DNA from: Brachyhypopomus gauderio
Taxonomy: Eukaryota > Chordata > Actinopteri > Gymnotiformes > Hypopomidae
NCBI RefSeq assembly: GCF_052324685.1
Contig: NC_135223.1
Coordinates: forward strand, 21,054,428 to 21,118,427
Reading direction: 5' to 3'
DNA length: 64,000 nucleotides
The stretch's first letter is position 1. Each line of letters opens with the position of its first letter. Below the pieces are notes generated by a model that was not told the DNA's origin, made no database searches, and saw only the letters and a program-made list of their open reading frames with translations. This document shows positions 2,269 to 56,039 of the stretch, piece after piece. The position numbers and the translations under genes are program-made.

Positions 2269-2428
2269 GTGTAGGGAGTGCGTGGGGAGTGCATGGGGAG
2301 TGCATGGAGAGTGCATGGGGAGTGTGTAGGGAGTGTGTGGGGAGTGCATGGGGAGTGTGTAGGGAGTGCATGGGGAGTGCGTAGGGAGTGTGTGGGGAGT
2401 GTGTGGGGAGTGCATGGGGAGTGCATGT

Positions 2429-3820
2429 TACCCTTACATGTACATGTACATGTTACCCTTAGGCGAAATTATGCATAAGCATGACATCAGTTTCCATTCC
2501 TACGCAGACGACACTCAGCTATATTTATCGGCAAAACCCGATGATTTAGGCGCAAACAGTAAGATTGAGAAATGTGTAGAAGAGATAAAACATTGGATGG
2601 CATGTAACTTTCTAGCACTAAATGCCGATAAAACAGAATTGATAATAGTTGGGTCTAGGGCTGCGAGAGACAAGATACATAATGCAGCATTGAATCTACA
2701 TTCTTTTAATATAACCCCCAGCGCAGAGGTAAAGAACTTGGGCGTCACAATAGACCCAGATCTCTCGTTCGATACACATATTAATAATATAACTAGGGTA
2801 GCGTTCTTTCACTTGCGCAACATTGCCAAAATTAGAAACATAATAAATATTAGTGATGCAGAAAAACTAATCCATGCATTCATATCCTCTCGTTTAGATT
2901 ATTGCAACAGTCTCCTAGCTGGATGTTCTGGTAAATCGATAAACAAACTCCAGCTGGTTCAGAACGCAGCAGCACGAGTTTTAACAAAAACTAAAAAGTT
3001 TGATCACATTAGTCCCGTACTATCGTCATTACACTGGCTGCCAATTAGATTCCGTATTGACTATAAAATACTTTTATTAACATATAAAACGCTGCATGGC
3101 TTAGCTCCAGACTATCTTAGTGAACTTATTGAACAATATAACCCAGCGCGTTCACTTCGCTCGCAGGACGCAGGGTTATTAACTGTTCCTAGGATCAAAA
3201 AGATCACAGCAGGTGGAAGAGCCTTTTCTTTTAAAGCTCCACAATTGTGGAATAATCTTCCTGCCTCTATTCGGGACTCAGACACAGTCTCATTGTTTAA
3301 AACTCGATTAAAGACTCATCTGTTTAGTTTGGCCTTTGATTAATCTGTTACATATTTACTACATCTCGTATCTTTTCTCCGAGGTTCACCTGGAGAGTAA
3401 CATTGCAGTCGGAGCCTACAATACCAGCATCGCTGCTCCGACACGGAATGAAAGCCTGGCGTTCATCAACAGACATTTACAGTGACAATATCATAACCCA
3501 GAACTTTCATTTTTACCTTTACTTAGTCTGATTGTGTGATTTGTGTGTGACTTGTGTATTTGTCTGTATTTTGTGTAATCTGTGTGTTAACGGGCCGCCC
3601 AATGGAGGATGGGTTCCCTTTTGAGTCTTGGTTCTCCCGAGGTTTCTTCCTATTCCCCACTATCTTAGGGAGTTTTTCCTCGCCACTGTCGCCCTTGGCT
3701 TGCTCATTAGGGTTCTGGACCCGTAGTATTGTTAACCTTTTAAATCCTGTAAGGCGCTTTGTGACAACATGTGTTGTGAAAAGCGCTATACAAATAAACT
3801 TTGATTGATTGATTGATTGA
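2429..3820 (+). mobile_element. 5'-truncated L2-type LINE (non-LTR retrotransposon)
   Basis: An open frame to the stop at 3341-3343 encodes the end of a LINE reverse transcriptase. The catalytic YADD box (RT motif C) is at 2501-2512, followed by the thumb and the C-terminal part of the CR1/L2 type, with signatures such as LDYCNSLLAG and LHWLPI. The upstream fingers and palm and the endonuclease are missing, so the copy is dead on arrival. After the stop comes a typical fish L2 3' UTR, ending near aagcgctatacaaataaac and a (TTGA)n tail at 3801-3820. The exact 5' junction is uncertain; the first about 40 bases after the minisatellite could belong to either. The long intact frame suggests a fairly young insertion. 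Confidence 0.88.
2469..3343 (+). pseudogene. LINE reverse transcriptase C-terminal fragment
   Basis: This is the coding remnant of the L2 copy. Roughly 290 residues are intact from just before the YADD catalytic box to the stop codon. The open frame extends further upstream into the minisatellite only because the 11-bp repeat happens to lack stops in that frame. It has no start codon of its own and lacks RT motifs upstream of motif C, so it cannot make an active enzyme. Confidence 0.8.
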
Positions 3821-4840
3821 GTGTGTAGGGAGTGCGTGGGGAGTGTGTAGGGAGCGCGTGGGGAGTGTGTGGGGAGCGTGTGGGGAGTGCATGGGGAGTG
3901 CATGGGGAGTGTGTGGGGAGCGCGTGGGGAGTGCATGGGGAGCGTGTGGAGAGCGCGTGGGGAGTGCGTGGGGAGGGGAGCGCGTGGGGAGCGCGTGGGG
4001 AGGGGAGCGTGTGGAGAGTGCGTGGGGAGGGGAGTGCGTGGGGAGTGCGTGGGGAGGGGAGCGCGTGGGGAGCGTGTGGGGAGCGTGTGGGGAGCGCGTG
4101 GGGAGCGTGTGGGGAGCGCGTGGGGAGCGTGTGGAGAGCGCGTGGGGAGTGCGTGGGGAGTGCGTGGGGAGGGGAGCGCGTGGGGAGCGTGTGGAGAGCG
4201 TGTGGGGAGCGCGTGGGGAGGGGAGCGCGTGGGGAGCGTGTGGGGAGGGGAGTGCATGGGGAGCGTGTGGGGAGGGGAGCGTGTGGGGAGGGGAGCGTGT
4301 GGGGAGTGCGTGGGGAGGGGAGTGCGTGGGGAGCGCGTGGGGAGCGCGTGGGGAGCGCGTGGGGAGTGCGTGGGGAGTGCGTGGGGAGCGCGTGGGGAGC
4401 GCGTGGGGAGTGCGTGGGGAGCACGTGGGTTGGGGAGCGCGTGGGGTGGGAAGTGCGTGGCTCCGGGGAGGCAGGGTGGAGGCGTAGGCTCAGTGGCCCG
4501 CTCCTCCCCTGTAGGGTTATGAGGCAAGAGAGGAGAGCCGGAGGGTGAAGGTCAGGTTGTAGGCGCTGGGAGCGAAGCAAGGCTCGGCCCGAGAGAGTAG
4601 GAACCAGCAGAGGAGCAGGAGCAAGAGGAAAGAGTGAGACAGAGGGAGACAGAATGGGAGAGGGACAAGAGTTGTCCCCGGCGTCCCCACAGACCCCTCT
4701 GTCTAACCACTCACCTGCCAATGGCAAATTGGAAACAACTCCGCACATAATCCCTAGGATCTAAAAATACCCAACGCATTGAAGGGCCATCCACGAAGCC
4801 CTGTCAGTCTGCACATGATTTCTGCCCAGCAACAGTCCAG

Positions 4841-9139: not shown

Positions 9140-9912
9140 AGCTCGGCTACTGTAGCTACCGCTCCACAGCTCTGATTTTGTGGCTACCGCTCTACAGCTC
9201 TGCTACTGAGGCTACCGCTCCACAGCTCTGATACTGTGGGTACCGCTCTACAGCTCTGCTACTGTGGCTACCGCTCCACAGCTCTGGTACTGTGGCTACC
9301 GCTCCACAGCTCTGATTCTGTGGCTACCGCTCCACAGCTCTGCTACTGTGGCTACCGCTCCACAGCTCTGCTACTGTGGCTACCGCTCCACAGCTCTGGT
9401 ACTGTGGCTACCGATCCACAGCTCTGATTCTGTGGCTACCGCTCCACAGCTCTGCTACTGTGGCTACCGCTCCACAGCTCTGCTACTGTGGCTACCGCTC
9501 CACAGCTCTGCTACTGAGGCTACCGCTCCACAGCTCTGCTACTGTGGCTACCGCTCCACAGCTCTGCTACTGTGGCTACCGCTCCACAGCTCTGCTACTG
9601 TGGCTACCGCTCCACAGCTCTGCTACTGTGGCTACCGCTCCACAGCTCTGATTCTGTGGCTACCGCTCCACAGCTCTGCTACTGTGGCTACCGCTCCACA
9701 GCTCTGGTACTGTGGCTACCACTCCACAGCTCTGGTACTGTGGCTACCGCTCTACAGCTCTGCTACTGTGGCTACCGCTTCACAGCTCTGATACTGTGGC
9801 TACCCCTCCACAGCTCTGATACTGTGGCTACCGCTCCACAGCTCTGATACTGTGGCTACCGCTCCACAGCTCTGATACTGTGGCTACCCCTCCACAGCTC
9901 TGATACTGTAGC
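9140..9912. repeat. 28-bp minisatellite, about 27 copies
   Basis: Direct head-to-tail copies of ctgctactgtggctaccg plus ctccacagct, with single-base variants (gctac, gattc, gatac or ggtac at the variable position). Copies are contiguous with no spacers, so it is a minisatellite and not a CRISPR array. It lies within the presumed tgfb2 intron 1. Four of the last five copies carry the gatac variant, a sign of local unit duplication. Confidence 0.95.
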
Positions 9913-10873: not shown

Positions 10874-11521
10874 TCTAGAGATATTAGTACAACAATGTTG
10901 GGGGAATATATAAATGGTTACACAACCCAACACGTAAACGTGGTCTCTCATAGCAGCCGGTAGGAAATACACAAATACTCTTTTGGGCTTTTTATCGAAT
11001 GAGAATAACTATGAGCCAACTCTGTGATCTTACAGGAGGCACATGCGTGCCAAGCAGTTCACAACATCTTCAGATAGTCGTCTGTGAAGGCGCAGAAGTT
11101 CACACAATTAATGAAATCTTAGAAACTGCATGTTCTTCTTTGTCCCAATCAGAGCACGTGCTAAGACATTAAATCCGTTCTTTCTTCGCAAAAGATTACT
11201 GAATGAACGGGCACGCATATCCTTAAAATAACATTTAGGAGAGGGTGTCAAATGCAAAAACACGCGCCAGGCTCATTGTACGCAATGGGCCACCATCTAA
11301 CAAACAATAGTTTCTCAAAGCGCTGTGTGCATGTGGGTGAAATGGTTCCACCTCTCAAATGAAGTTCACATCAGGCAAGCTGATAGTAGACTACTCAGAA
11401 AAAAAACTCTTGAGTATCACAAACGTTTTACAATGTTAAAAAACAAGCAAAAATCAAATAAACAAACAAAACAATAACTAATCAAAACATAGTCCCGATT
11501 AAGCTCACACTAAAAACTTAC
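9913..11521. other. Presumed proximal tgfb2 intron 1
   Basis: No exon was recognised. It contains a short (CT)n at about 10040-10060 and a compound GT/G/TA/GT microsatellite. The minus-strand splice donor of tgfb2 exon 1 lies at its upper border. Confidence 0.5.
10737..10872. repeat. Compound (GT)n-(G)n-(TA)n-(GT)n microsatellite
   Basis: A GT run is followed by about 18 consecutive G, a short unique spacer, a (TA)n run at 10808-10842 and a second GT run. The poly-G block could form a G-quadruplex, and the TA block could extrude a cruciform. Confidence 0.9.
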
Positions 11522-11867
11522 TTTCTGCAGGATAGAAGGGGTGCATGTCAATTTTGTGCACCTCCTTTGCGTAATACTCCTCCTCGCTGCGCTGGCGCTC
11601 GCAGGTGGCCGCGCGCTCGTTGGCCTTCTCCTGCAGCAGGTCCCGGGTGCTGTTGTAGATGGCGATGATGTCCCGGGACACCTCCTCGGGCTCCGGGTAG
11701 TCCTCCGGTGGGGTGGTCAGCTTGAGTTTACTGAGGATCTGACCACGAATGGCCTCGATTCGCTTCTTCATGAACTGATCCATGTCCAACGTGCTGCATG
11801 TGGATAAACTGAGAGCCACGGTGACTAAATCCAAGGTCAGAAAAAGACTTAAAATGAAGAAGTTCAT
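11522..11867 (-). CDS. tgfb2: TGF-beta 2, coding exon 1 (partial gene)
   Basis: This exon encodes the first 115 residues of transforming growth factor beta-2, a secreted dimeric cytokine made as a pro-protein. The ATG is at 11867-11865. It is followed by a hydrophobic signal peptide (about residues 1-20), then the start of the latency-associated peptide with the diagnostic stretch [20 protein letters not shown] and later [12 protein letters not shown] (an N-glycosylation site, NST) and [12 protein letters not shown]. Cys in LSTCST corresponds to the residue that bonds LTBP in the family. The exon ends after one base of a codon (phase 1) at a good donor, gtaagt (11521-11516), at the position where the human gene is also split. 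The mature growth-factor domain, the furin site and later exons are not in the window; intron 1 of this gene is very long in mammals. The neighbour rrp15 lies upstream in the same orientation, as in human. Confidence 0.95.
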
Positions 11868-12755
11868 TTTTGTGGTAGGTATAGTGCTACCAGTATTGGT
11901 CTCAACGGTTTTCAAAGAATATCTCTGCGCCCGATATCTGGATTAAATTAAGCGAAATGCACCGATTTCAAAATAATTATACGATAAATGCATTTTGTAT
12001 AGTCAATTGTCTTTTTCGATCGAGAATAAAGTTCGTTCGGGGCTTAAGGACGTTTAAAACATCCCCTATCACTACCTATGTTTGCTTTGTACCTGTAAAT
12101 CCATTCGACGTGACAACTTCGCAAAGTTTTTTTTAATGATGAAAAATCCGTTATGCAGAGAAAGAAAAGCTGGCAGCATAAATCATTCCACGCACTGATT
12201 GTATCTTGAAGAAAAGCTACAGATCTGAGTACAGTGCAGTGATCGGTGTGGCCATCTGATGCCTTGAAGACCTTCTCTAACTATACGGGCGAAACAAACC
12301 GCGAGCAGCTCCGGTCCGGTCCGGTCGTTTGGCGCAGACGTGCAGCCTGCGGGATGGCGCACAGCTCCACCGCATCAGAGCGCCACCAGCCTCTCCAACG
12401 GTGGCGCAAACGGCACAGGCGCGTCTCGTTATTACCACGGATCACCGTGTAGCTTCACACCGACAGGTCTACTCACACGCGTACGGAGAAGCGCACACGA
12501 CACCGTCTGCGGAGTTTCGCACTGGTTTTTTGGCGCACGTTAGGTGTGAGGGAGAAAAGCTACTAAAGCTGTTAACGCGCGTGTCTGCGGGGCTGAAGAA
12601 CCGGCGGAGTGAACTGAAGAGGCGAGAAGTCCAGTTATTTTCCTTCAGGGCGACGAAAGAGCGTTAATGCGCGTCTCCATCCCCGCTTGTGGAAAAAACA
12701 GATGCGGAATGCGCAGTTCCTCTGCGCTGACGCACGCCAAGACGCATCATCTCCG
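11868..12755 (-). other. tgfb2: Predicted tgfb2 5' UTR
   Basis: From the start codon to a transcription start placed about 25-30 bp downstream of the TATA box gives a leader of roughly 0.9 kb. Long leaders are known for TGFB2 mRNAs in mammals. The upper half (12290-12760) is GC- and CpG-rich. I cannot see whether it contains an intron, and the start site is inferred from the TATA position. Confidence 0.5.
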
Positions 12756-15948: not shown

Positions 15949-18942
15949 CTGTCGAGTACAAGCAGAAGTGAGGGACTGAGAGCACGTCTCCGAGAGCTCA
16001 GGGAGACACGCTCTGGTGCCTGTACACCCTTGGAACTGAAGCACACCAAAGGTGGGCTTGTCCTAAACCAGCATCACCATCATATTCACTGTATCTCCAA
16101 CATTTCTCAGCCTGTTCTATTCAGAAAATATATGATCTGTGACATGATTCATAGAATCTCTCATAGAAGAAATGTAGTCATATAATATCCTTTGAAAAAC
16201 AAAAATGCATCATTAATATCATTCGATACAATTTCACACTGACCATCAATTGTTTAGTCTTATCAGCACGTGTGCGGCCTGCTGAAGTCCCACGCAGTAC
16301 ATCAATGAAGTCCTTCTTTGATACGGAGGACAGGAGCTTTGCTTTCTTCCTCTCAGAGCCTCCAACCTCCTTCATCTTCTCATTCATGCTCTTCTGGTGT
16401 GTCCGCACTGCATTAAACAGCTGCACTACGCCTCTGAGAGCATCGTGGAAGAAAGAAACCAAGAACATGAAAATTAATGAAAAAAATACCCAGTTATTCC
16501 AATATAACATCTTTGGAGACGTTTTTAGAGGGCGCATGAGAACCTGGTCTGCATGGCGCCTACAGGCTTAGCCCACCAGTTTGTGACTGTCCTCATAAAT
16601 CCCAACACAAATACTTGGAAGCATAGAGAAAAAAAAAACACTTTCAAAAATGAAATAATATCGGAGACATCAACAAGAACACTACGCATCAGCCACTGTT
16701 ATCACCAGACAAACTGTTGATGGTGGTGGTGTGGGCAGGTGTGTCTAGTCAATACAGAACTGTGCAACATTTTATGACAAGCCCAAACTACTTGAATAAC
16801 ATAATTAATCCAGTCATTGTGCCTCTCAATGAGCAACACAGGCTTAATTTCATCTTCATGGATGACCAAGCTCCAGCTCATAGAGGTCGCATCATTAGGG
16901 AATGACTGTTGGAGGCTGGGGTACCTAAAATGGAGTAACCTGCACTTTCATCAGATTTGAATACCATAGAAACCCTTTGGGATTTTGGGCACATGACAAG
17001 TTACTGACATTTGTTTTGTTGTAGAATACCCACCACATTTGTTTCAATAAATTGTTTGAGATGAGAAAATCACCATTGCATGTCCTACTTTCATATAACA
17101 ACACTGCAGCGTGATCTTTTTACGTTTTCCATACATTTCCCTAAAGCCAAATATCCCTAACCTTTTGTTAATAGTGTGTATATATACACATTCACAAACT
17201 AGTTTAAATAACTAGCCAGCCACTCTCTTGCTGGATTTATTTTAGAACTAATTGGCTACTAATCCTGTACCCAATTACAGAAGCGAATCCCTATACAAAA
17301 TATAGTTATATACTTTAGATATGTAGACGTCAGTGAGTTGGTGTCACCTACCGGGTAGCAGTTCTCTGCAGAGTTCTCTCCTTCTCTTTATCTTGTACTA
17401 CATCCGGCTTTACACGACACATCAACTCCCATGCCCGCTTTTTATCTGCCTGTTGATAAACACAGATACTTGTGACTGATGCAGGTGGCCATTCTGACCA
17501 ACATTTAACACCCTGCTATTTGTTCTGATTTGAGCTGAAATCATACCAAAGGAACATGAGAGCTTCTTGGGGAAATCTACTCAGTAAAGTGGGGTTGGGC
17601 ATTATGACAGGTAATTATGACAGTTGTTTTAAAAGAGTTCTACATCAGTTGGATAGCAAACGATGAGACAATGGAGAACAGCTGAAGTTTACACTACTGT
17701 CTCAAGCCCAACAGCTGAAGTTTACACTACTGTCTCAAGCCCAACAGCTGAAGTTTACACTACTGTCTCAAGCCCAACAGCTGAAGTTTACACTACTGTC
17801 TCAGGCCCAACAGCTGAAGTTTACACTACTGTCTTAGGCCCAACAGCTGAAGTTTACACTACTGTCTTAGGCCCAACAGCTGAAGTTTACACTACTGTCT
17901 TAGGCCCAACAGCTGAAGTTTACACTACTGTCTCAAGCCCAACAGCTGAAGTTTACACTACTGTCTCAAGCCCAACAGCTGAAGTTTACACTACTGTCTT
18001 AGGCCCAACAGCTGAAGTCTACACGAAGTCTAACTGCCTTTTCTGTGGTGAACTGATTGTCTGGTTTTTCATCTCTACCTGTTTCTTTCTCTCAAGCTTC
18101 TCTTTCTTCTCTTTCGCACTGAGCTTTTCAAACCGTTTGTTCTTCAGCAGGATACAGGGCTTATTATCCGGCGTTTTCTTCCCCAAGATTTTCGCCATGG
18201 CTTCCGCCCACCCAGCATTGGGGTTTGCCTCCTCCACGTCTCCATTCTGCTCTTCCTCGTCCTCTGCCTCATCCCCATCATTCTCACTGCGATCCTCCTC
18301 TGGTCCTCCACTCAGGTCATCATCTGATCCCTCTTCTTCATTCACACCGATGTCTTCTTCAGAGGGCAAACCAAACATTTGCATGAATACAAGTATTTAC
18401 ACGCTACATGCACAGGCAGTCTAACATGTTTATTTAATGATTCAGTTAACTAGACAGACAACAATAGGTGTTATAAGACCTACTGTCAACATGATAGCTT
18501 GTTAATCAACTATCTGTTTCTATCTACGCCATCATCCAGCTAGGTTTAGTAGCTAGCTAGTCAAGAGACATAGAAGATGCCATCAAATCTCTAAACCTGG
18601 CCACCTTGAATAAGTATCCAAGCACAGGTAGGAATTTCAGTCCTAGATTAATTTAATTCAGTTTAGAGTCACAAACGAAAACTGGATATCTAGCAAACCG
18701 CCGCTAGTTAATAAGCCAGTTAGCTAACAAACTATTCTGGTATTTGACTGCACTTGCCTTGCAGATGTTAGTAAAACGATAAAGACGGCTTCTGCTGAAA
18801 GGTTTCAGAGTACATAACAGTAAAATTGCACAGTGACTACAAACTAAGTACACAAACCCAGACTGACTATACAAAAAAGTAGCAAAGTATTACCTTTTTC
18901 AATTTCAACAACAACATGTGGCTTTTTCACTAAGGATGCCAT
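15790..18942 (-). CDS. rrp15: RRP15-like ribosomal RNA processing protein (five coding exons)
   Basis: Rrp15 is a nucleolar factor of the pre-60S ribosomal particle, needed for 27S/32S pre-rRNA processing. Coding exons on the minus strand: 18942-18894, 18356-18079, 17449-17352, 16433-16244 and 15948-15790. Their phases (1, 0, 2, 0) join without a break to 774 nt, 257 residues (human protein 282). The order is: a short basic N-terminus; an acidic, low-complexity stretch (about residues 17-60); the conserved [15 protein letters not shown] block; a Lys/Glu-rich helix; then the RRP15 core with [21 protein letters not shown] and [12 protein letters not shown]; and the conserved tail [20 protein letters not shown]. 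The donor after exon 2 (gtagag) and that after exon 4 (gtcagt) are weaker than consensus. Intron 2 holds a 33-bp minisatellite and intron 3 a Tc1 remnant. It is tandem with tgfb2 as in human. Confidence 0.93.
16244..16433 (-). CDS. rrp15: rrp15 coding exon 4
   Basis: Residues 142-205: the most conserved core, [29 protein letters not shown]. It begins after ctctcag and ends at ATG before gtcagt (phase 0). Confidence 0.9.
16690..17180 (+). mobile_element. Tc1/mariner transposase remnant in rrp15 intron 3
   Basis: The translated sequence around 16717-16905 contains [16 protein letters not shown] and [15 protein letters not shown], the middle of a Tc1-like transposase around its second catalytic Asp. 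It continues with a broken version of the SPDLNPIE region at 16915-16985. A stop interrupts the frame and the 5' half is missing. It is on the strand opposite to rrp15. The limits are approximate. Confidence 0.75.
17352..17449 (-). CDS. rrp15: rrp15 coding exon 3
   Basis: Residues 110-141 plus two bases. It runs from the acceptor tttatcaacag to the donor gtaggt and encodes [20 protein letters not shown], which matches the human [16 protein letters not shown] region. Confidence 0.9.
17678..18025. repeat. 33-bp minisatellite in rrp15 intron 2, about 10.5 copies
   Basis: The unit is acagctgaagtttacactac plus tgtctcaagccca, with C/T and A/G variants in the last third. Because 33 is a multiple of three, one plus-strand frame stays open, but there is no sign of coding. 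The array ends about 54 bp from the rrp15 exon 2 donor. Confidence 0.95.
18079..18356 (-). CDS. rrp15: rrp15 coding exon 2
   Basis: Residues about 17-109. The acceptor is ccctctgaag before 18356, and the donor gtagag follows 18079. It carries the acidic region and the conserved [15 protein letters not shown] motif. The stretch of open frame upstream of 18356 is intron. Confidence 0.85.
18894..18942 (-). CDS. rrp15: rrp15 coding exon 1
   Basis: ATG at 18942-18940 starts [16 protein letters not shown]. The exon ends in phase 1 before the donor gtaata at 18893. It is the shortest and least conserved exon; the start is chosen because the phase fits exon 2. Confidence 0.75.
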
Positions 18943-19439: not shown

Positions 19440-19860
19440 TGTCCAGAAGAGCCCGTCCTAGGAACAGCTCCTGAACTCTGAACACAAGATCAATAGAGGC
19501 TGGATCTACCACACCAGATAGGACCCCAGATGCAGACTGTACAAAGATGCCCCTGAGACAATGCAGCACATGACAGCAGGGTGCAATATGCTATCAGGGA
19601 GAGAATACATGGATTGCCGGACCAAGTGGCTGACATAATATACAGAAACGTTTGTGCAGGGCATGGGGTGGAGGTCAACGTGGGACACTCCCCCAAAGGT
19701 GGTGGAGGAAAACCAAGCTAAGATCACGTGGGACTTCCAGACACAAACTGATAAAATGGTAATGGCTAACCAGCTGGACATCATGGTGATGGACAAACAG
19801 CAGAAATGGGCTGTAGTGATAGATGTGGCAATGCCATGTGATAGCAACATCAGGCACAAA
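19440..19860 (+). mobile_element. 3' fragment of an R2/R4-type non-LTR retrotransposon (restriction-like endonuclease end)
   Basis: The frame at 19660-19857 encodes TPPKVVEENQAKITWDFQTQ, then the endonuclease-like block with LDIMVMDKQQKWAVVIDVA and DSNIR. Just upstream, in another frame, lies a damaged zinc-knuckle (C-x2-Y...H-x4-C) at 19535-19590. This order is typical of elements whose C-terminus is a PD-(D/E)xK endonuclease. At least one stop and one frameshift make it a dead fragment. The family name (R2, R4/Dong or related) is inferred from memory of such proteins. Confidence 0.65.
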
Positions 19861-19926
19861 AATCACCAATTTTATTTTTATTTGTTCAAATTTTCAGAAA
19901 TAATAAAGTTGTGTGCCAATGTCAAT

Positions 19927-19927
<1 letters not shown>

Positions 19928-19961
<34 letters not shown>
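19928..19961. repeat. (GT)n microsatellite
   Basis: Short uninterrupted GT run. Confidence 0.85.
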
Positions 19962-20214
19962 CATGCATTTTGTAACATGTAGCCCTACAAAAAGAGCCAC
20001 AATGTAGATCCCTGAAGATCCTAGTTGTGTTTAAAGTGCAAACACTAGGTGAGAGTAGACAAACAGGTCAGGTGTGTGTACATTCCCGCTCACCTGTCAG
20101 GTAGAGCACACTCACGCGTGTAGGCTGCTGCATCAGCTAGAGTCTCTGAGGGGCACGACGCTTAACACTTAAGTGGAAGGACGTACTGGAAGACACTGCA
20201 CTTCCCAAATCATC

Positions 20215-20233
20215 ATGGCACCACCGCAACCGC
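20215..20233 (+). CDS. Coding exon 1 of the unknown membrane gene
   Basis: Nineteen coding bases ending in phase 1 at gtaagt. The assignment rests on Kozak context, the consensus donor and phase fit with exon 2; it is not proven. Confidence 0.6.
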
Positions 20234-22474
20234 GTAAGTCACAATAACCTGCTTTGTATTTTCCAGGACTATAAAAAGGGCATCTAGAATAACATCTCAA
20301 GTGTTTTAAAGAGAATTCCTGTTGTTATGTGTGTGACTATGGTTGAATCTTCAAGTGTCTGAATTATTTCCAGGAGGGGATCACTTTATCAGCATATTGA
20401 AAAGGTTGCCCCGGGAGACTCTGGTCTAACAACTTGTTCCATAAAATCCAGTTTCAGCCCTGGCTTACTGTTTATTGTGTTTTGCTCTATGCCTTCACCT
20501 TGGTGAAGTTTGCTATATTTAATACATGGTCTGAGATTCACAGCTATTTACATGCTGAATTGGGCCTCATATTGCCAATCAATATTTAATTGAAATGTTA
20601 ATTGGAAAATTTTGCTTTTTAAAAGAAAAGAGACTTTACGCTGAAACCACGTGTCAAGTAACCTTTTAACTGCCTGCATGTGTGCACTGACGCCACATAT
20701 GGTGCACGGTGACAGGTTAAACAGGATGAGTGCTTCCTGCCAAGTGTGTTGAAAACTAAAACTACAAACCTCAAATTACACCTGCACCTGGATGTTTACA
20801 CAAATCATTATTGTTTCATTTGTTTCATTTAATGAAGGGGGAAAAATAAAGAAAAGATAGAGAGAAAGAGAGATAACAGTCACACTAAATTGTACTTTAA
20901 ACATAATTACATTACTGTCAGGACTCCTTTTTATTAGTAGTATTATTTGTATTTTCATGGTAAGACAAGCACATATTGTTCTCTGCTTTTCAGATACCAG
21001 GAGCCCAGTGAGGGAAGGAGTCCTTGGCTTCATTTTGGGAGCAGTGGGGGGGTGTGCACTGGGAGTTACGCACTCACCAGTCAACCAGGCCATGGCTGAG
21101 ATCATTGAAGGGTCCCTACTGAAGCCGATCACAGCTGGCGTGAGGACCGTGGGCCCTCTGGGTCTGGGGACTCTCCTGGGCGCGACGGCAGTAACTGCAG
21201 CAATGACAGCAGCTGTAGCAGGTGTGATTGGAGCCGCCCTGGTCGCGTTGCTGCTCGTTAGGTTAAAGAGCTCTGGGGTGGAGGGTGTGGGCGGGTGTGT
21301 GTGGTTCACTGCTGGACTGGTGGCGGCGCTGAGCACCACGGCCTGCGGAGCGGCAGTCGGGTTCGCCGTGGAGCACCTCACCCACGGGTGGGGAGTGGCG
21401 GCGCTGCTCTGGGCTCTGGTGGTGTTCACAGCACTGAAGATGCTGGTTCACGTGGCCGTGCGGCTGACCTGCAGGGAGAGGGACCGCGGTAATGTCCTGC
21501 AGCTCGGCGCCAGGGCCGACGGGCGTGGGCGGAGCTCACTGGAGGCCATGGAGGCAGAGAAGAGAGAGAGGGTGACTGTGGAGATCGAACACACTATCGC
21601 TACTTTGGAGTCCAGCAATGGGATAGAAAGGCCCAAGCACAGAACCGCCTGGGAAACCCGATGGCAGGAGAGGGAGGAAATGGAGACGTTGAAGAGGGAG
21701 ATGGTCGAGCAGAAGGTGATCCAGCAGCGTCTAACCAAGGTTATGGCCAAATATGTGGAATTTCTGGCTTTTTCTGGAGCTCCAATGACAGTGACTGCAG
21801 TTGTGACCGCCAGCTTCGGGATCTTTGGATATGGAGACTACCGATTTGTTTTTGTGGTCTTGTTAGCTCTGGTGCTCTGTATGGCTTTCGTGCTCATGAG
21901 ATCGATGCATTTGAACTTCTGGATGTTCACCGGCTGCATGGCGATGTTTGCCACGTTTGCCATTGCCGTGTTGACCGTGCACGCGGGACAAGAGGCCGCA
22001 GGAATGGCTGTAAAGATGCAACAGATGGGACAGAAGCTGAATAATGAGGTCATAACGGCCCAGATGGACCACAGATCATCACTAGAGGCCATAGCTGCAA
22101 GCTTCTTCGTGTCAAAAGTGTGTCAAGTTGGCTTAGGGGCAACCGTTGGAGGTCCGCTAAATCCAAAGGTTTTAGTCAAAGTCATAGTGGGAGGATGTGT
22201 GGCAACAGTAGCTATTATTTCAATAGTTGAGGGGTCATCAGTGGTTCTTGGGGTTGGTGGGTTGACAGGGGCATTACTGGGGGCTGTAGGTGCTTCTGGT
22301 GTGTCTCTGGGGGCAGCTGCAGCTGTAGCCGTTCAGTGGTCCTCATGGGTGGGAACAATGAGCACAACAGCTGGAATGTTCCTCGGTGCTTTAGCCGTAG
22401 GGAAGTGGAACATTGTCAACACAGCGATCTATGTTCTTGTTGCCTACATTTTTGCAATGATAAATCCTTATTGA
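20215..22474 (+). CDS. Unrecognised multi-pass membrane protein (two coding exons)
   Basis: I do not recognise this family. Exon 1 (20215-20233) has ATG in a good Kozak context (A at -3, G at +4) and reads MAPPQP plus one base before a consensus donor, gtaagt. Exon 2 (20994-22474) follows the acceptor ctctgcttttcag and completes the codon, giving 499 residues. Without splicing, an ATG at 20957 would give 505 residues but has a poor context. The N-terminal half (about residues 14-163) holds four or more Gly/Ala-rich hydrophobic segments. Residues about 164-262 are charged and helical, rich in Glu, Arg and Lys, probably a cytosolic coiled coil. Residues about 270-495 hold six or more further hydrophobic segments, the last ones very rich in Gly, Ala, Val and Ser. 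There is no signal peptide with a cleavage site, and no nucleotide-binding or catalytic motif that I can see. A continuous frame with strong amino-acid bias argues for a functional gene. Function is unknown. Confidence 0.75.
20994..22474 (+). CDS. Coding exon 2 of the unknown membrane gene
   Basis: A single 1481-bp exon holds nearly the whole protein. The stop TGA is at 22472-22474. Confidence 0.8.
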
Positions 22475-23295
22475 GGAATTATGTATGTTAAGGAATGATG
22501 CCTTTGGGAAATAAACTGTTCCTGGGATACGGCTTAACCCAGAACTGCTGTAGGGTAGTGCATAATGTACCAAGATTTCATTTAGTTAATTTTTACTCAT
22601 GTTTTTTTTTTCTCCTGACTTATGCATTTTCTACAGGTGTCAAATTGTCCAGTCCAAACAGTGAAGGCATGACTTTCCATGATCTTTGTTTAAGCTGATA
22701 CTTTATGCCTATTGAACTATGATATTTGTGTTATTCCAAGACAATAAGTATTACAGTGTTTGCATGTTTAATGTGCAGTTTTTTCCTATGTGTTGTCTGA
22801 ATCTCATTTTTTGGCACCAAGCATTCTGGTAATATAATGGAGAACACATTTCCTATGAGATTGGTGAAGTCAGTCACTGAATCTTCTGAAGTACTCATGC
22901 CATATTACATGACATGATATTCTTGGGAAACTAAACTGACTATTCTTGTCTATAAACAGATTAACCCATGACTGCCCAGCCTTGTGATGGGGTTAACAGT
23001 AGAACTCAGCCGGCTGTGTTCTCTTGAATCCCTGGTTAATTTGATTACTGCAAAAGTTTCATTAACGGCCATGGTTCCTGTTCCATGATTGGATGTTTCT
23101 GATTGGCCACACCCATGTCCTGGTGTCATATTGGTCCGAACTCTTGTGTAAAGCTTTTTTATACCATGTCTTTATTGACACTGATGAAAGTAATGGAAAT
23201 GTTTGCCATGTTTTCTTATTCGCACTTTGCACATAACCATCTTGCTCAGTCAATAAAGAGTCTTCGATCAATAATAAATCTTTAGCCTCTCCATT
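22475..23295 (+). terminator. 3' UTR and polyadenylation signals of the unknown membrane gene
   Basis: No further coding potential follows the stop. Two AATAAA hexamers at 23252-23257 and 23273-23278 sit about 0.8 kb downstream, a plausible 3' end. Confidence 0.5.
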
Positions 23296-29869: not shown

Positions 29870-30180
29870 AGCTGGGCGTACACTGTGCGATTTTTGGCCC
29901 ATTTTCAGACGATTTTTCACTCGTTTCGGCTCAATCGCGTGTCGTGCATCGTATAGTTTACACAGGTAAACGAGGAACGATTCACACCTCACGACCAACT
30001 CCCGATCAGAAATCGCAGCGTCGCAAGAACACCAAACATGTTTGAAATTCAAATCGCTCCTCGTGAGAGTATCGCACTGTTGAAGCAGCTCCACGAGCCG
30101 ACTCTCCCTGCGATTTAGTCGTACAGTTTGAGCTGGAGCTGAGTACACGATTTAAAATATCGCACAGTGTACGCCCAGCT
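29870..30180. mobile_element. PIF/Harbinger-type MITE, 311 bp
   Basis: Perfect 22-bp terminal inverted repeats begin agctgggcgtacactg. The flanking trinucleotides are TTA (29867-29869) and TTA (30181-30183), the standard Harbinger target duplication. It is inserted directly after the BED-finger coding sequence of the surrounding hAT element. Confidence 0.88.
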
Positions 30181-30183
30181 TTA

Positions 30184-30422
30184 GCCGCAACATGTTTTGC
30201 GTTGAGGTGGTAACGAAGGGTGGAAGTGCTCCTGTGATAAGCGAACTCCTTCCTACATAAAGTGTAAATAACACTATTTTTGTTTGTATTTCCATCTGAA
30301 AGTTTCTTATATTTAAATTTCCCATCCACCAGCGTAGCCTCTTCAGTCATCTCCATCATGATCATCTTATTGTGTGTCCATAATCTGTATGCCCGGAACT
30401 CGCGCACTGAGAAACATTCCAC
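30184..30422 (-). pseudogene. hAT BED zinc-finger remnant
   Basis: The N-terminal DNA-binding finger of the same transposase. The second Cys and both His are kept (LCRKEF...HLNAKH), but the first Cys is replaced by Tyr. The frame runs on into the Harbinger MITE. Confidence 0.75.
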
Positions 30423-30530
30423 GGTGCAAAAGTGTCTCGTCCGTTAAATGCGTTAAAATGCGTTAATTTTTTTAGTGCGTTAATTTTCCTGTAATTAATT
30501 AATCGAAATTAACGCGTTAAAGTCCCACCA

Positions 30531-38589: not shown

Positions 38590-39857
38590 TACAGTGGATA
38601 CAGAAACTATTCAGACCCTTTGCTGTGAACTCGTATTTAACTCACATGCTGACCATTTCTTCAGATCCTCCTTGAGAAGGTTCTACTCCTTCATAAGCGT
38701 CCAGCTGCAATTAATTACACTACTTGTACTTGATTAGGAAAAGCACACACCTAAGACCTCACAGTTCACAGCGTAGATGAAAATCATGAGGTCAAAGCAA
38801 TGGCTCGAGCTCAGAGACAGAATTGTGGCAAAGCATAGATCTGGCCAAGGTTACAAAGGAATTTCTACAGCGTTCAAGGTTCCTAAGAGCACCTCCATAG
38901 TCCTTAAATGGAAGAAGTTTGGGACGACCAGAGCTCTTCCTAGACCTGGCCATCCAACCAAACTGAGGAATCGAGGGAGAAGAGCCTTGGTGAGAGAGGT
39001 AAAGAAGAACCCAAAGATCACTGTGTCTGAGCTCCAGAGATGCAGTAGAGAGATGCGGAAGCTTCTCAGTGCAAGACATAAAACCCTGTTTAGAGTTTGT
39101 CAAAAAACCCAATATATGAGGAATAAGATTATCTGGTCTGATGAAACAAAGATTGAACTTTTTGGTGTTAATTCGGTACATGTGGAGAAACCCAGGCACT
39201 GCTCATCACCTGCCCAATACAATCCCAACAGTGAAACATGGTGATGGCAGCATCATGCTATGGGGATGTTTTTCAGCTGCAGGGACAGGACGACTGGTTG
39301 CAATTGAAGGAAAGATGAATGTGGCCACGTTCAGATATCCTGGAAGAAAACCTCTTCCAGAGTGCTCTGGACCTCAGACTGGGCCAAAGGTTCATCTTCC
39401 AACAAAACAATGACCCTAAGCACACAGCTAAAATAACAAAGCAGTGGCTTTGGAACAACTCTGTGACCATTCTTGACTGACCCAGCCAGAGCCCTGACCT
39501 AAACCCAATTCAGCATTTCTGGAGAGACCTGAAAATGGCAGTCCACCAGCGTTCACCATCCAACCTGATGGAACTGGAGAGGATACACAAAATCAGGTGT
39601 GAAAAACTTGACTCATGGTTGTACTAGATCAAAAGGTGCTTCTAATCAAAACTGAGCAAAGGGTCTGAACGTTTATGACCACATATTTCGTTTCTTTTTT
39701 AATACATTTGCAAAAACTTTTACATTTGTTTTTGTCTAGATGGGTTGCTGAGTGTACTTTTAATGAGAAATAAAATGAACTTTTATGATTTTAGCAAATG
39801 GCTGCAATGAAACTGAAACATTTAAAAAGGATCTGAATACTTTTCGTACCCACTGTA
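38590..39857 (+). mobile_element. Tc1-like transposon, internally deleted
   Basis: The inverted ends tacagtggatacagaaac and the complement of gtacccactgta lie at TA dinucleotides, the Tc1/mariner target. Between them a Tc1 transposase is recognisable: the N-terminal paired-like helices (KHRSGQGYKGISTAFKVPKS), then [11 protein letters not shown] around the second Asp, [19 protein letters not shown], and a broken version of the SPDLNPI region. Frameshifts, stops and a deletion between the DNA-binding part and the catalytic part make it dead. Its length of 1.27 kb, against about 1.6 kb for intact copies, fits the deletion. Confidence 0.92.
38777..39475 (+). pseudogene. Tc1 transposase pseudogene
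   Basis: The coding remnant of the surrounding element runs in at least two frames. The first frame (38777-39244) holds the DNA-binding region and the start of the DDE domain. The second (39141-39413) holds the middle of the DDE domain. Stops follow before the last catalytic acid. Confidence 0.88.
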
Positions 39858-50720: not shown

Positions 50721-51230
50721 CATGATGCATTTCAGCCTGCGTGGACATGGGCTACACTAATACCCTCCAGCAGAGGCCTGGACACGGTCTCAGAGGCTTA
50801 AACACACACACACTTGACCTCAGGGGGAGAAAACAGGGTTACACAGTAGAGAGAGTGCTGCTGGGAGCTGAATCATATCAAAAGACATTATTGATTCCCA
50901 AACAGCCTGTTTCACTACTGTTGTGTCTCTCTGTCTTTTCTTTTTCTTCCATTCTTTTCTATCTCCTTTTTGTTGGGTGGCCCATATACAGAGCACCTGT
51001 CCACAGTCCCATCCTGCCCATTGCAAGGAACTTTCTTCTTCTTTATCTAAATAATATCATGTGAACAGTTCATCGTTTGTCCAACTGTGAAATGATTCAA
51101 CATGCTGATGGTAATATGTGTACATGTGATAATCACTCCATTCGGTCTGCAAGTTATATTGAAGGAAATTGGTATTTGCTGTTATCTTGTAATCTAGCAA
51201 TGGGAGAGAAGGGGCTGTGTGAAGTGTGTT

Positions 51231-52441
51231 CTGTGGGAGGTGAGGTGGTGAAGGTGAGGGTTCTCTCAGGGCTGCTGTGTGTGGGGGGTGAGGTGGTGAA
51301 GGTGAGGGTTCTCTCAGGGCTGCTGTGTGTGGGGGGTGAGGTGGTGAAGGTGAGGGTTCTCTCAGGGCTGCTGTGTGTGGGGGGTGAGGTGGTGAAGGTG
51401 AGGGTTCTCTCAGGGCTGCTGTGTGTGTGGGGTGAGGTGGTGAAGGTGAGGGTTTTCTCAGGGCTGCTGTGAGCAGGAGGTGAGGTGGTGAAGGTGAGGG
51501 TTCTCTCAGAGCTGCTGTGTGGGGGGTGAGGTGGTGAAGGTGAGGGTTCTCTCAGAGCTGCTGTGTGTGGGGGTGAGGTGGTGAAGGTGAGGGTTCTCTC
51601 AGAGCTGCTGTGTGTGGGGTGAGGTGGTGAAGGTGAGGGTTCTCTCAGGGCTGCTGTGAGCAGGAGGTGAGGTGGTGAAGGTGAGGGTTCTCTCAGGGCT
51701 GCTGTGTGTGGGAGGTGAGGTGGTGAAGGTGAGGGTTCTCTCAGGGCTGCTGTGAGTAGGAGGTGAGGTGGTGAAGGTGAGGGTTCTCTCAGGGCTGCTG
51801 TGTGTGGGAGGTGAGGTGGTGAAGGTGAGGGTTCTCCCAGGGCTGCTGTGTGTGGGAGGTGAGGTGGTGAAGGTGAGGGTTCTCTCAAGGCTGCTGTGAG
51901 CAGGAGGTGAGGTGGTGAAGGTGAGAGTTCTCTCAGGGCTGCTGTGTGCGGGAGGTGAGGTGGTGAAGGTGAGGGTTCTCTCAGGGCTGCTGTGAGCAGG
52001 AGGTGAGGTGGTGAAGGTGAGGGTTCTCCCAGGGCTGCTGTGAGCAGGAGGTGAGGTGGTGAAGGTGAGGGTTCTCCCAGGGCTGCTGTGAGCAGGAGGT
52101 GAGGTGGTGAAGGTGAGGGTTCTCCCAGAGCTGCTGTGTGTGGGGGGTGAGGTGGTGAAAGTGAGGGTTCTCTCAGAGCTGCTGTGTGAGCAGGAGGTGA
52201 GGTGGTGAAGGTGAGGGTTCTCCCAGAGCTGCTGTGTGTGGGGGGTGAGGTGGTGAAGGTGAGGGTTCTCCCAGGGCTGCTGTGTGTGGGGTGAGGTGGT
52301 GAAGGTGAGGGCTCTCTCAGGGCTGCTGTGAGCAGGAGGTGAGGTGGTGAAGGTGAGGGTTCTCCCAGGGCTGCTGTGTGCGGGAGGTGAGGTGGTGAAG
52401 GTGAGGGTTCTCCCAGGGCTGCTGTGTGCGGGAGGTGAGGT
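51231..52441. repeat. 48-bp minisatellite, about 25 copies
   Basis: The unit contains gctgctgtgtgtggggggtg and aggtggtgaaggtgagggtt plus ctctcagg. Unit length varies because the gtgtgtgggg part is shortened, lengthened or replaced by gagcagga. The gagcagga variant recurs at irregular spacing. A 499-residue minus-strand frame across it (rich in Ser, Pro and His) comes from the repeat and is not a gene. Confidence 0.95.
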
Positions 52442-52528
52442 GTGTTTACCAGTATATGCTGGAGTTGGGGAGGCCTGATGGACTCCATGCTTAGACTTCC
52501 TGCAACAACACCAGCAAGAGCTTTCAGG

Positions 52529-52529
52529 T

Positions 52530-52607
<78 letters not shown>
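52529..52607. repeat. (CA)n microsatellite
   Basis: Uninterrupted CA run of about 78 bp just beyond the 48-bp minisatellite. Confidence 0.95.
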
Positions 52608-52609
<2 letters not shown>

Positions 52610-52936
52610 CTCCAGACAGCCAAACCCACACCCCGGCATGCAGGAGAGAGCACATGTGAGCTGACAGCTGGCGTCCGCCGGCCCCAGCAGGTGCCGTGTA
52701 GAGGCCAGAGAGACAGAAAGAGCAGCTCTGGGGCCCCTTACCTCCAGTGAATGAACTGATGTCAGTCTGGACACATGAGTTTGACTTTCACGCTTCTCCA
52801 ACAAAGCACAGTCTCCTTTCTCTCATTATACAGCTGCCTTGAGTTCTTTAGTTATTTTAGTTCTCTGAAAACTTCTAAGAGTCTCGATCTATGTATGTCT
52901 CTACCTACGTATATTCCCTCTCACAATCCCCCCCGT

Positions 52937-54100: not shown

Positions 54101-55177
54101 TCTAATTGCTGTTTCTGACAAGCTTAATCCTGTCACATATCTGAGAAAGATGCAGTCAGCTTCACCTCTTGTTGAGTCTTCCTGCTTTACATGTGGCTTG
54201 TTCAGTAGTCAAATGCTTTAAATACTAAAACGCCTTCTACGCAGCGCCGCAGAAGACGTGCAGAGCCTCAGACGTTTTACACTTTAGTAGAGAATCCGTA
54301 TCACACACTGCATCATATTCATCATCATTTTTTTATCTTGAGGGAAGTTATAAACTTCATAGAAAAAAATGTAATTATTTCCCAACTTATTATCAGTGTG
54401 TTTTCTTTCTTTGGAAGGCCAGCAGTGTATAGTGAGGGGAAAAGAGGCATCATTAAGGACAGTGTTCCCAGTCGTCAGAGCGTTTCCTCACCCTCCTCCC
54501 TGTACGTGGGTCTGCTCCTCACCTCTGTGCTCTCAGGGAGAGTGACCTCCCCGTAAATAATCATGACCACTGTGCTGACACTGAACCTCTCTCACCTCGC
54601 CATTCCCTACCTCTATCCCCCAACACATGACCTGCAGGTCAACTCACCATATTATACACCCCTACCACATACCCCCCCCCCCCCCCACACACACATCCAC
54701 TCTTTGCTCAAATTTCATTTACATAGTTGCCACTTTTTCATTTTTATGTTCTTCCTCTCTCTCTGTCTCTCTGTCTGCAATGTGACTAGCTTTAGACATT
54801 CCAAAAAGCCATAGTAATTACCATTTAAAATACTAAGGGATCTCTCTTAGCTAGGGAGGAGAAGTTTGCCCAGTCAAACACTAGATGCCGGGTACCACTG
54901 CAGTGCTGCTGAGGTGGAGAGGAATTAGAATTGCCTTGACTTTTGACCAGCTCTGTCTCCAGGGGGGAGCCGTCTCAGCAGGGGAGGGCACATCATGACT
55001 TCTTTTTGCAATTTAAGGACTCGTATGGAAAATATAAATTGGTAGCAGCAGGATAAGAATGGCGCATTGGCATTCTGCACACCAGCCGTCGCCATTCATA
55101 AGGCCGCGGTGTGTTTTTGCGCCTCTCTCGATTAGAAGACCTTGAGAACGGAGCGTTAAGAGAGGGACGGAGTTGGC

Positions 55178-55345
55178 GTTGGGGCTGTGCGCTACACACA
55201 CGTTGGGGCTGTGCGCTACACACACGTTGGGGCTGTGCGCTACACACACGTTGGGGCTGTGCGCTACACACACGTTGGGGCTGTGCGCTACACACACGTT
55301 GGGGCTGTGCGCTACACACACGTTGGGGCTGTGCGCTACACACAC
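55178..55345. repeat. 24-bp minisatellite, exactly seven copies
   Basis: Seven identical units of gttggggctgtgcgctacac plus acac occupy 168 bp. The lack of variation points to very recent expansion. Frames opened on both strands are not genes. Confidence 0.97.
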
Positions 55346-56039
55346 GCCAACTGTGTTTCTGCTCCGCTCCTTCAGTGTCTCGCTGTGTCATGGCAACTTC
55401 ATCCAGGCAAAGTCACTAAAACTACACGTAAAGTATGAAAACCGTTTAGTAACATTTGACTTTGTGTGAATTCAGTAATCACACAAATTTGTAATTTGTA
55501 ATAAGAGTGCGGTATCCGGGTGCAGTGATATTCATTTGGTAATACATTAAATATGTTTGGTAATGCTGTAGCGTTTGGTTAGCAGTGGGTCTCTTGTTCT
55601 CTCTTAAAGACCATGTTTCTGTTAACATCTCACACAGTACACAGTATATACAGTATGTGAGTCTGGAGCTTTGTTGCTGCCGTCTCTGTTAAACTGGGTA
55701 GTTCCTTGTCTGTTGAAGAACACCATTAAAAAGTCTTAATCTGTGTGTTTTTCAGGAGTTCGAACATATTTCTGGTGATGAGATCATGTTGGAAGGAGTG
55801 TTGATGGTAGCTGGGAGTTGGTGCTACGGTAAGTGTGATGGAGACTGGAACAGTTTTCTAAAGTTAAATCTGTTTCTGATGGAGACCGATAGAGAGCTAA
55901 ATACAGGGAGCTATAAATGTCTGACTAGTGCAGTGGGCTCCAGAGTGTTCAGTTTGATACAGTTCTGAGAAACCTAAAGATAAAATATAGTGATGGTTGG
56001 TAGACCTCCTGAATCATTGCTTTGACCAAAGCTTAGTGA

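Follow-up and report, generated by a model that had tools for sequence, protein, structure and literature searches.

The available part of a zebrafish survey (PMC3599513) reports 66 orphan genes with a mean of 131 residues and 2.3 exons, 135 conserved teleost-specific genes with a mean of 168 residues and 3.7 exons, and conserved genes averaging 498 residues and 8.9 exons. Here we describe a gene for a 499-residue protein on the forward strand of a 64,000-nucleotide stretch of the Brachyhypopomus gauderio genome (NC_135223.1, positions 21,054,428 to 21,118,427; hereafter the window). Like the orphan and teleost-specific genes in that part of the survey it has few exons and no family that could be detected, but their proteins are on average far shorter. 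The combination of an orphan-like exon count with the length of a conserved gene makes it possible that this is an older gene of narrow spread. The Ifi-6-16 (ISG12) family, PF06140, offers another comparison, as it shares Gly/Ala-rich hydrophobic helices with the 499-residue protein. However, its model spans 84 positions, it has its own cluster elsewhere in the genome, and it was not listed for the whole protein or for any of four fragments in Pfam at E values up to 10. We consider the product most likely, at low confidence, to be an uncharacterised and possibly lineage-restricted membrane protein.

A two-exon gene with a clean coding frame

Splicing 20215-20233 onto 20994-22474 yields an open reading frame of 499 codons plus stop (1500 bases, + strand; Table 1). 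The period-3 power of exon 2 was 16.2, about 23 times the mean of 300 dinucleotide shuffles (mean 0.72, standard deviation 0.42, maximum 2.7), whilst eight other window stretches of 1476 bases gave 0.27-1.0. The periodicity extends along the exon: five blocks reported out of six, each 246 bases long, gave values of 3.3-4.5. Of 2000 first-order Markov sequences modelled on the dinucleotide composition of 20861-22474, none contained a frame of at least 480 codons, the longest reaching 278, and exon 2 contains neither a frameshift nor a stop across its 1.48 kb. Third-position guanine-cytosine (GC) content is 0.60, against a total GC of 0.36-0.41 in the intron and flanks. Synonymous choice often falls on codons ending in G or C (GAC 4 vs GAT 0, CAC 8 vs CAT 1, AAG 12 vs AAA 3), with the exceptions that TCA is the commonest Ser codon and that Ile is even. 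Around the start codon at 20215, position -3 is A and position +4 is G, and an in-frame stop at 20170 precedes the ATG by 15 codons. The acceptor TTTTCAG/AT opens exon 2 at 20994, and the last base of the TGA stop is 22474. The first-pass annotation had proposed a real gene with a clean 1.5-kb frame at 20215..22474, spliced at 20233/20994 and encoding 499 residues; the frame was recovered at exactly these positions. Taken together, these data leave little doubt that the two-exon gene is genuine.

Family searches and copy number

No Pfam-A family exceeded its cut-off for the whole protein or the four fragments at E values up to 10, a search in which few matches weaker than about E 0.1 survive the HMMER filters. 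The best rows below cut-off were COXG (E 0.064, on a fragment) and WTF (PF03303; E 2.5 on the whole protein), the latter scoring 8.3 bits on the whole protein and 10.3 bits on a fragment against a cut-off of 25 bits. Searches of NCBIfam (E up to 10) and PHROGs (E up to 1) returned 0 matches each, and nothing significant was found among PDB sequences, where two NADH dehydrogenase 4L rows stood at E 0.34. No close relative was found among viral contigs, prokaryote genomes, phages or plasmids. The protein had been described beforehand as belonging to no recognised family, and the four profile and structure libraries agree. However, having no recognised family is not the same as being undescribed.

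In the 796.5-Mb assembly (840 contigs) the exon 2 protein gave a single match at E ≤0.001. Relaxing the threshold to E 10 added one match to the genome search (E 8.5), to an Ala/Ser-rich antisense frame on contig C2, which we take for chance. Within the window, the only tblastn matches were the gene's own and a second of 17 residues at E 8.5. A single copy was thus found in this genome, and no recognisable paralogue. PF06140 itself exceeded its cut-off in five genome matches, all on contig C25, where four of the five are given as loci (L003-L006) of an Ifi-6-16 (ISG12-type) exon cluster.

Predicted membrane layout

The 499 residues are dominated by A (70), V (66), G (55) and L (50). Membrane spans were predicted with an insertion scale, from which the 17 top-scoring segments were listed. 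Nine segments score below 2.5 (15-33, 77-95, 105-123, 139-157, 290-308, 317-335, 400-418, 422-440 and 480-498) and a further three below 3 (58-76, 269-287 and 458-476). This agrees with the multi-pass membrane protein of ten or so Gly/Ala-rich hydrophobic segments proposed at the outset. The long hydrophobic runs at residues 58-95 and 422-456 could be hairpins. None of the 12 predicted spans scoring below 3 contains Asp or Glu; beyond residues 167-263 these acids occur at 14, 42, 45, 103, 133, 288, 340, 358, 365, 371 and 419.

The hydrophobic parts are separated by a charged stretch of 96 residues. To this extent the 100-residue charged helix of the first-pass annotation holds, but the stretch is broken at SSNGIERP and lacks a heptad signal. 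Helices are drawn here by the low-confidence AlphaFold model discussed below. The heptad hydrophobic moment was used in place of a dedicated coiled-coil predictor. Shuffled sequences attained the value of residues 186-214 in 684 of 1000 cases and that of residues 222-262 in 279 of 1000; neither is significant, and the coiled coil suggested between the membrane domains finds no support. Similarity between the two hydrophobic halves finds no support either: 38 of 300 local shuffles equalled or exceeded the best N-to-C alignment score, and no repeat relation between them was detected.

No N-glycosylation sequon occurs in all 499 residues, and a cytosolic position of the charged arm is therefore compatible with the sequence. 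The K+R/D+E counts of the loops around the four N-terminal spans are 2/1, 2/2, 2/1 and 0/1, followed by the charged arm. By the positive-inside rule this would place the N-terminus and the charged arm inside with four spans between them, although the fit is weak because the first outer loop has two basic and two acidic residues.

A possible mode of action and competing explanations

We favour, with a probability of roughly 0.3, a functional two-exon gene, single in its genome, whose product would be a polytopic membrane protein without detectable family that acts by helix packing. The coding frame, the hydrophobic layout and the single copy come directly from calculation, whilst every step past a multi-pass membrane protein is one that we infer. 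From an N-terminus inside, the chain would cross the membrane four times, continue into a charged arm in the cytosol, about 96 residues long, and return through three hydrophobic segments to a final bundle of about four. The small-residue-rich helices might then pack closely, forming an endomembrane scaffold, an assembly partner or a pore-like bundle, and the charged arm might dock cytosolic partners. A packed scaffold or pore-like bundle is preferred over an ion-coupled carrier because the scored spans hold no acid and the helices are rich in small residues; ion-coupled secondary carriers typically, if not universally, have an acidic residue within a membrane span. Helix packing with the charged arm as a docking part, as opposed to a proton- or sodium-coupled carrier, is accordingly a tentative suggestion.

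Several observations weigh against this proposal. Basic residues fall within the scored spans (K155, K402 and, at an edge, R290), and the C-terminal topology is ambiguous, with two possible readings. The GxxxG count was reached by 137 of 2000 shuffles, which is not significant enrichment, and the small-xxx-small count by 173 of 2000, not beyond composition; a special packing motif is therefore unsupported and the packing idea weakened. A channel and a scaffold are indistinguishable on the present sequence evidence. The single-sequence AlphaFold model is unreliable, with a predicted local distance difference test (pLDDT) value of 48.3 and a predicted template modelling (pTM) score of 0.30. The gene model itself has a weak point in exon 1, whose coding part is only 19 bases long. 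The splice signals had been called strong, but the donor ranks below several others nearby: by a rough matrix it scores 1.81, whereas the six best of 157 GTs in the region score 2.45-5.44. Yet among the 12 listed donors that close an ATG-open, in-phase exon it scores highest, the runner-up reaching 0.42. Exon 1 as modelled is plausible, not proven; nearly the whole protein is encoded by exon 2 whichever exon 1 is chosen.

The protein could instead belong to a known family of carriers or channels and have diverged so strongly that a single sequence does not reveal it to profile hidden Markov models. No transporter or channel family of Pfam-A exceeded its gathering score, the sole whole-protein row being WTF and the five fragment rows all lying below cut-off, and Mrp antiporter subunits and transhydrogenase appeared as structural rows only, neither the Pfam nor the PDB search matching them in sequence. 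Such divergence is a real possibility, if well short of probable. If this were a conserved gene of the ordinary kind in vertebrates or fish, annotated elsewhere as uncharacterised and with a housekeeping or tissue role, its novelty would come down to lack of study; the clean codon periodicity of exon 2 suits such a gene, but no Pfam family was found above cut-off, and widespread proteins usually match one. Its 499 residues lie next to the conserved zebrafish mean of 498 and far from those of orphan (131) and teleost-specific (168) genes, but two coding exons are below the conserved-gene mean of 8.9 (all from the available part of PMC3599513), and we regard an ordinary conserved gene as rather doubtful.

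Gly/Ala-rich hydrophobic helices would also befit a membrane effector of fish innate immunity, in the general style of interferon-induced ISG12/6-16, and immunity proteins are over-represented among the conserved teleost-specific zebrafish genes in the available part of PMC3599513. However, the PF06140 matches lie on C25 and not in this protein or its fragments, the gene is not expanded in its own genome, and a 1.64-kb stretch covering the start and its upstream flank has no GAAANNGAAA and one TTTCNNTTTC site, so that an immune effector appears distinctly unlikely. A dying or never-functional frame might be suspected from the tiny first exon and from a gene model known from sequence alone, but 1.48 kb free of stops and frameshifts, with periodicity sustained from block to block, make this very improbable indeed. 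Returning to the packed membrane protein, it is unlikely, if conceivable, that it represents a vertebrate family outside the curated libraries, in which a charged cytosolic arm connects two Gly/Ala-rich helical bundles in a new arrangement and whose fold and function would be new. Should orthologues share the architecture, this would be a vertebrate membrane-protein family without a Pfam match, adjoining the tgfb2-rrp15 pair and amenable to simple knockouts in model fish; should such orthologues be absent, it would be just another uncharacterised fish gene.

Table 1. Features of the 499-residue protein gene and its neighbour, in window positions.
Feature	Position	Strand	Basis and remarks
Exon 1, coding part	20215..20233	+	ATG in ATCATCATGG context; encodes MAPPQP and base 1 of codon 7; donor CGC/GTAAGT
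Single intron	20234..20993	+	760 bases, GT-AG; acceptor TTCTCTGCTTTTCAG, pyrimidine fraction 0.79 across 19 bases
Exon 2	20994..22474	+	Remainder of codon 7 through residue 499 and stop; long open frame
N-terminal hydrophobic region, residues 15-157	21017..21445	+	Hydropathy and insertion-scale scan, loop charges; probably 4 spans, Gly/Ala-rich
Charged soluble stretch, residues 167-262 (96 residues)	21473..21760	+	Sequence; probably helical and cytosolic; break at SSNGIERP
Three hydrophobic segments, residues 269-335	21779..21979	+	Hydropathy and insertion-scale scan
C-terminal Gly/Ala-rich hydrophobic region, residues 400-498	22172..22468	+	Hydropathy and insertion-scale scan; about 4 segments
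AATAAA, first possible polyadenylation signal	22510..22515	+	Consensus match only
Coding part of rrp15 exon 1 (neighbour in head-to-head orientation)	18894..18942	-	Read by eye; start codon 18942

Neighbouring genes and other features of the window

Further AATAAA motifs follow at 23252 and 23273. To the left, the neighbours are tgfb2 and rrp15. The head-to-head arrangement with rrp15 noted earlier was borne out by two Rrp15p exons in Pfam, at 16178-16567 (E 1.7e-15, 57.9 bits, over cut-off, and also RRP15 in the PDB) and 18019-18396 (E 2.6e-5, 24.9 bits, just below the 27-bit cut-off), and by an rrp15 start codon on the minus strand about 1.27 kb from that of the 499-residue gene. A tgfb2 exon at 11505-11942 (-) matched TGFB2 in the PDB (E 7.3e-48) ahead of TGFB3 (2.4e-25), and TGFb_propeptide in Pfam. 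RRP15 is kept in the TGFB2 region of coelacanth, human and mouse in the available part of PMC8931421, and in that of PMC3436827 one and the same cluster of vertebrate non-coding elements is given for ESRRG, RRP15, SPATA17, TGFB2 and USH2A. An IQ-motif pattern scan of the window found no spata17 gene.

Between the two start codons lies a (GT)16 run. In 500-base intervals between 18500 and 20499 the CpG observed/expected ratio is 0.16-0.51, which gives no hint of a CpG-rich promoter working in both directions. The piece at 19440-19880, between the two genes, is presumably akin to a non-LTR (long terminal repeat) retroelement; its frame at 19639-20007 had no Pfam match.

Of 40 frames listed in the 150 kb past the right end of the window, only the periodicity leader was searched. 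This is a POU-homeodomain gene in a single frame of 395 residues (L017:5673-6857, +; Pou E 3e-38, homeodomain E 5.4e-19), about 147 kb past the stop of the 499-residue gene, which we take to resemble POU3F1.

Lastly, mobile and repetitive sequences are present elsewhere in the window. A reverse-transcriptase frame at 2363-3343 (+; RVT_1 E 4.2e-7) is probably the remnant of a long interspersed nuclear element, and 38777-39244 (+) encodes the N-terminal domain of a Tc1/Sleeping Beauty-type transposase (HTH_SB E 1.2e-16). A BED zinc-finger frame at 30006-30443 (-; E 1.9e-4) is possibly transposon-derived. Long repeat-peptide frames, several on both strands and minisatellite-like, occur at 3523-4760, 9210-9847, 17657-18020, 51057-52740 and 54993-55469.
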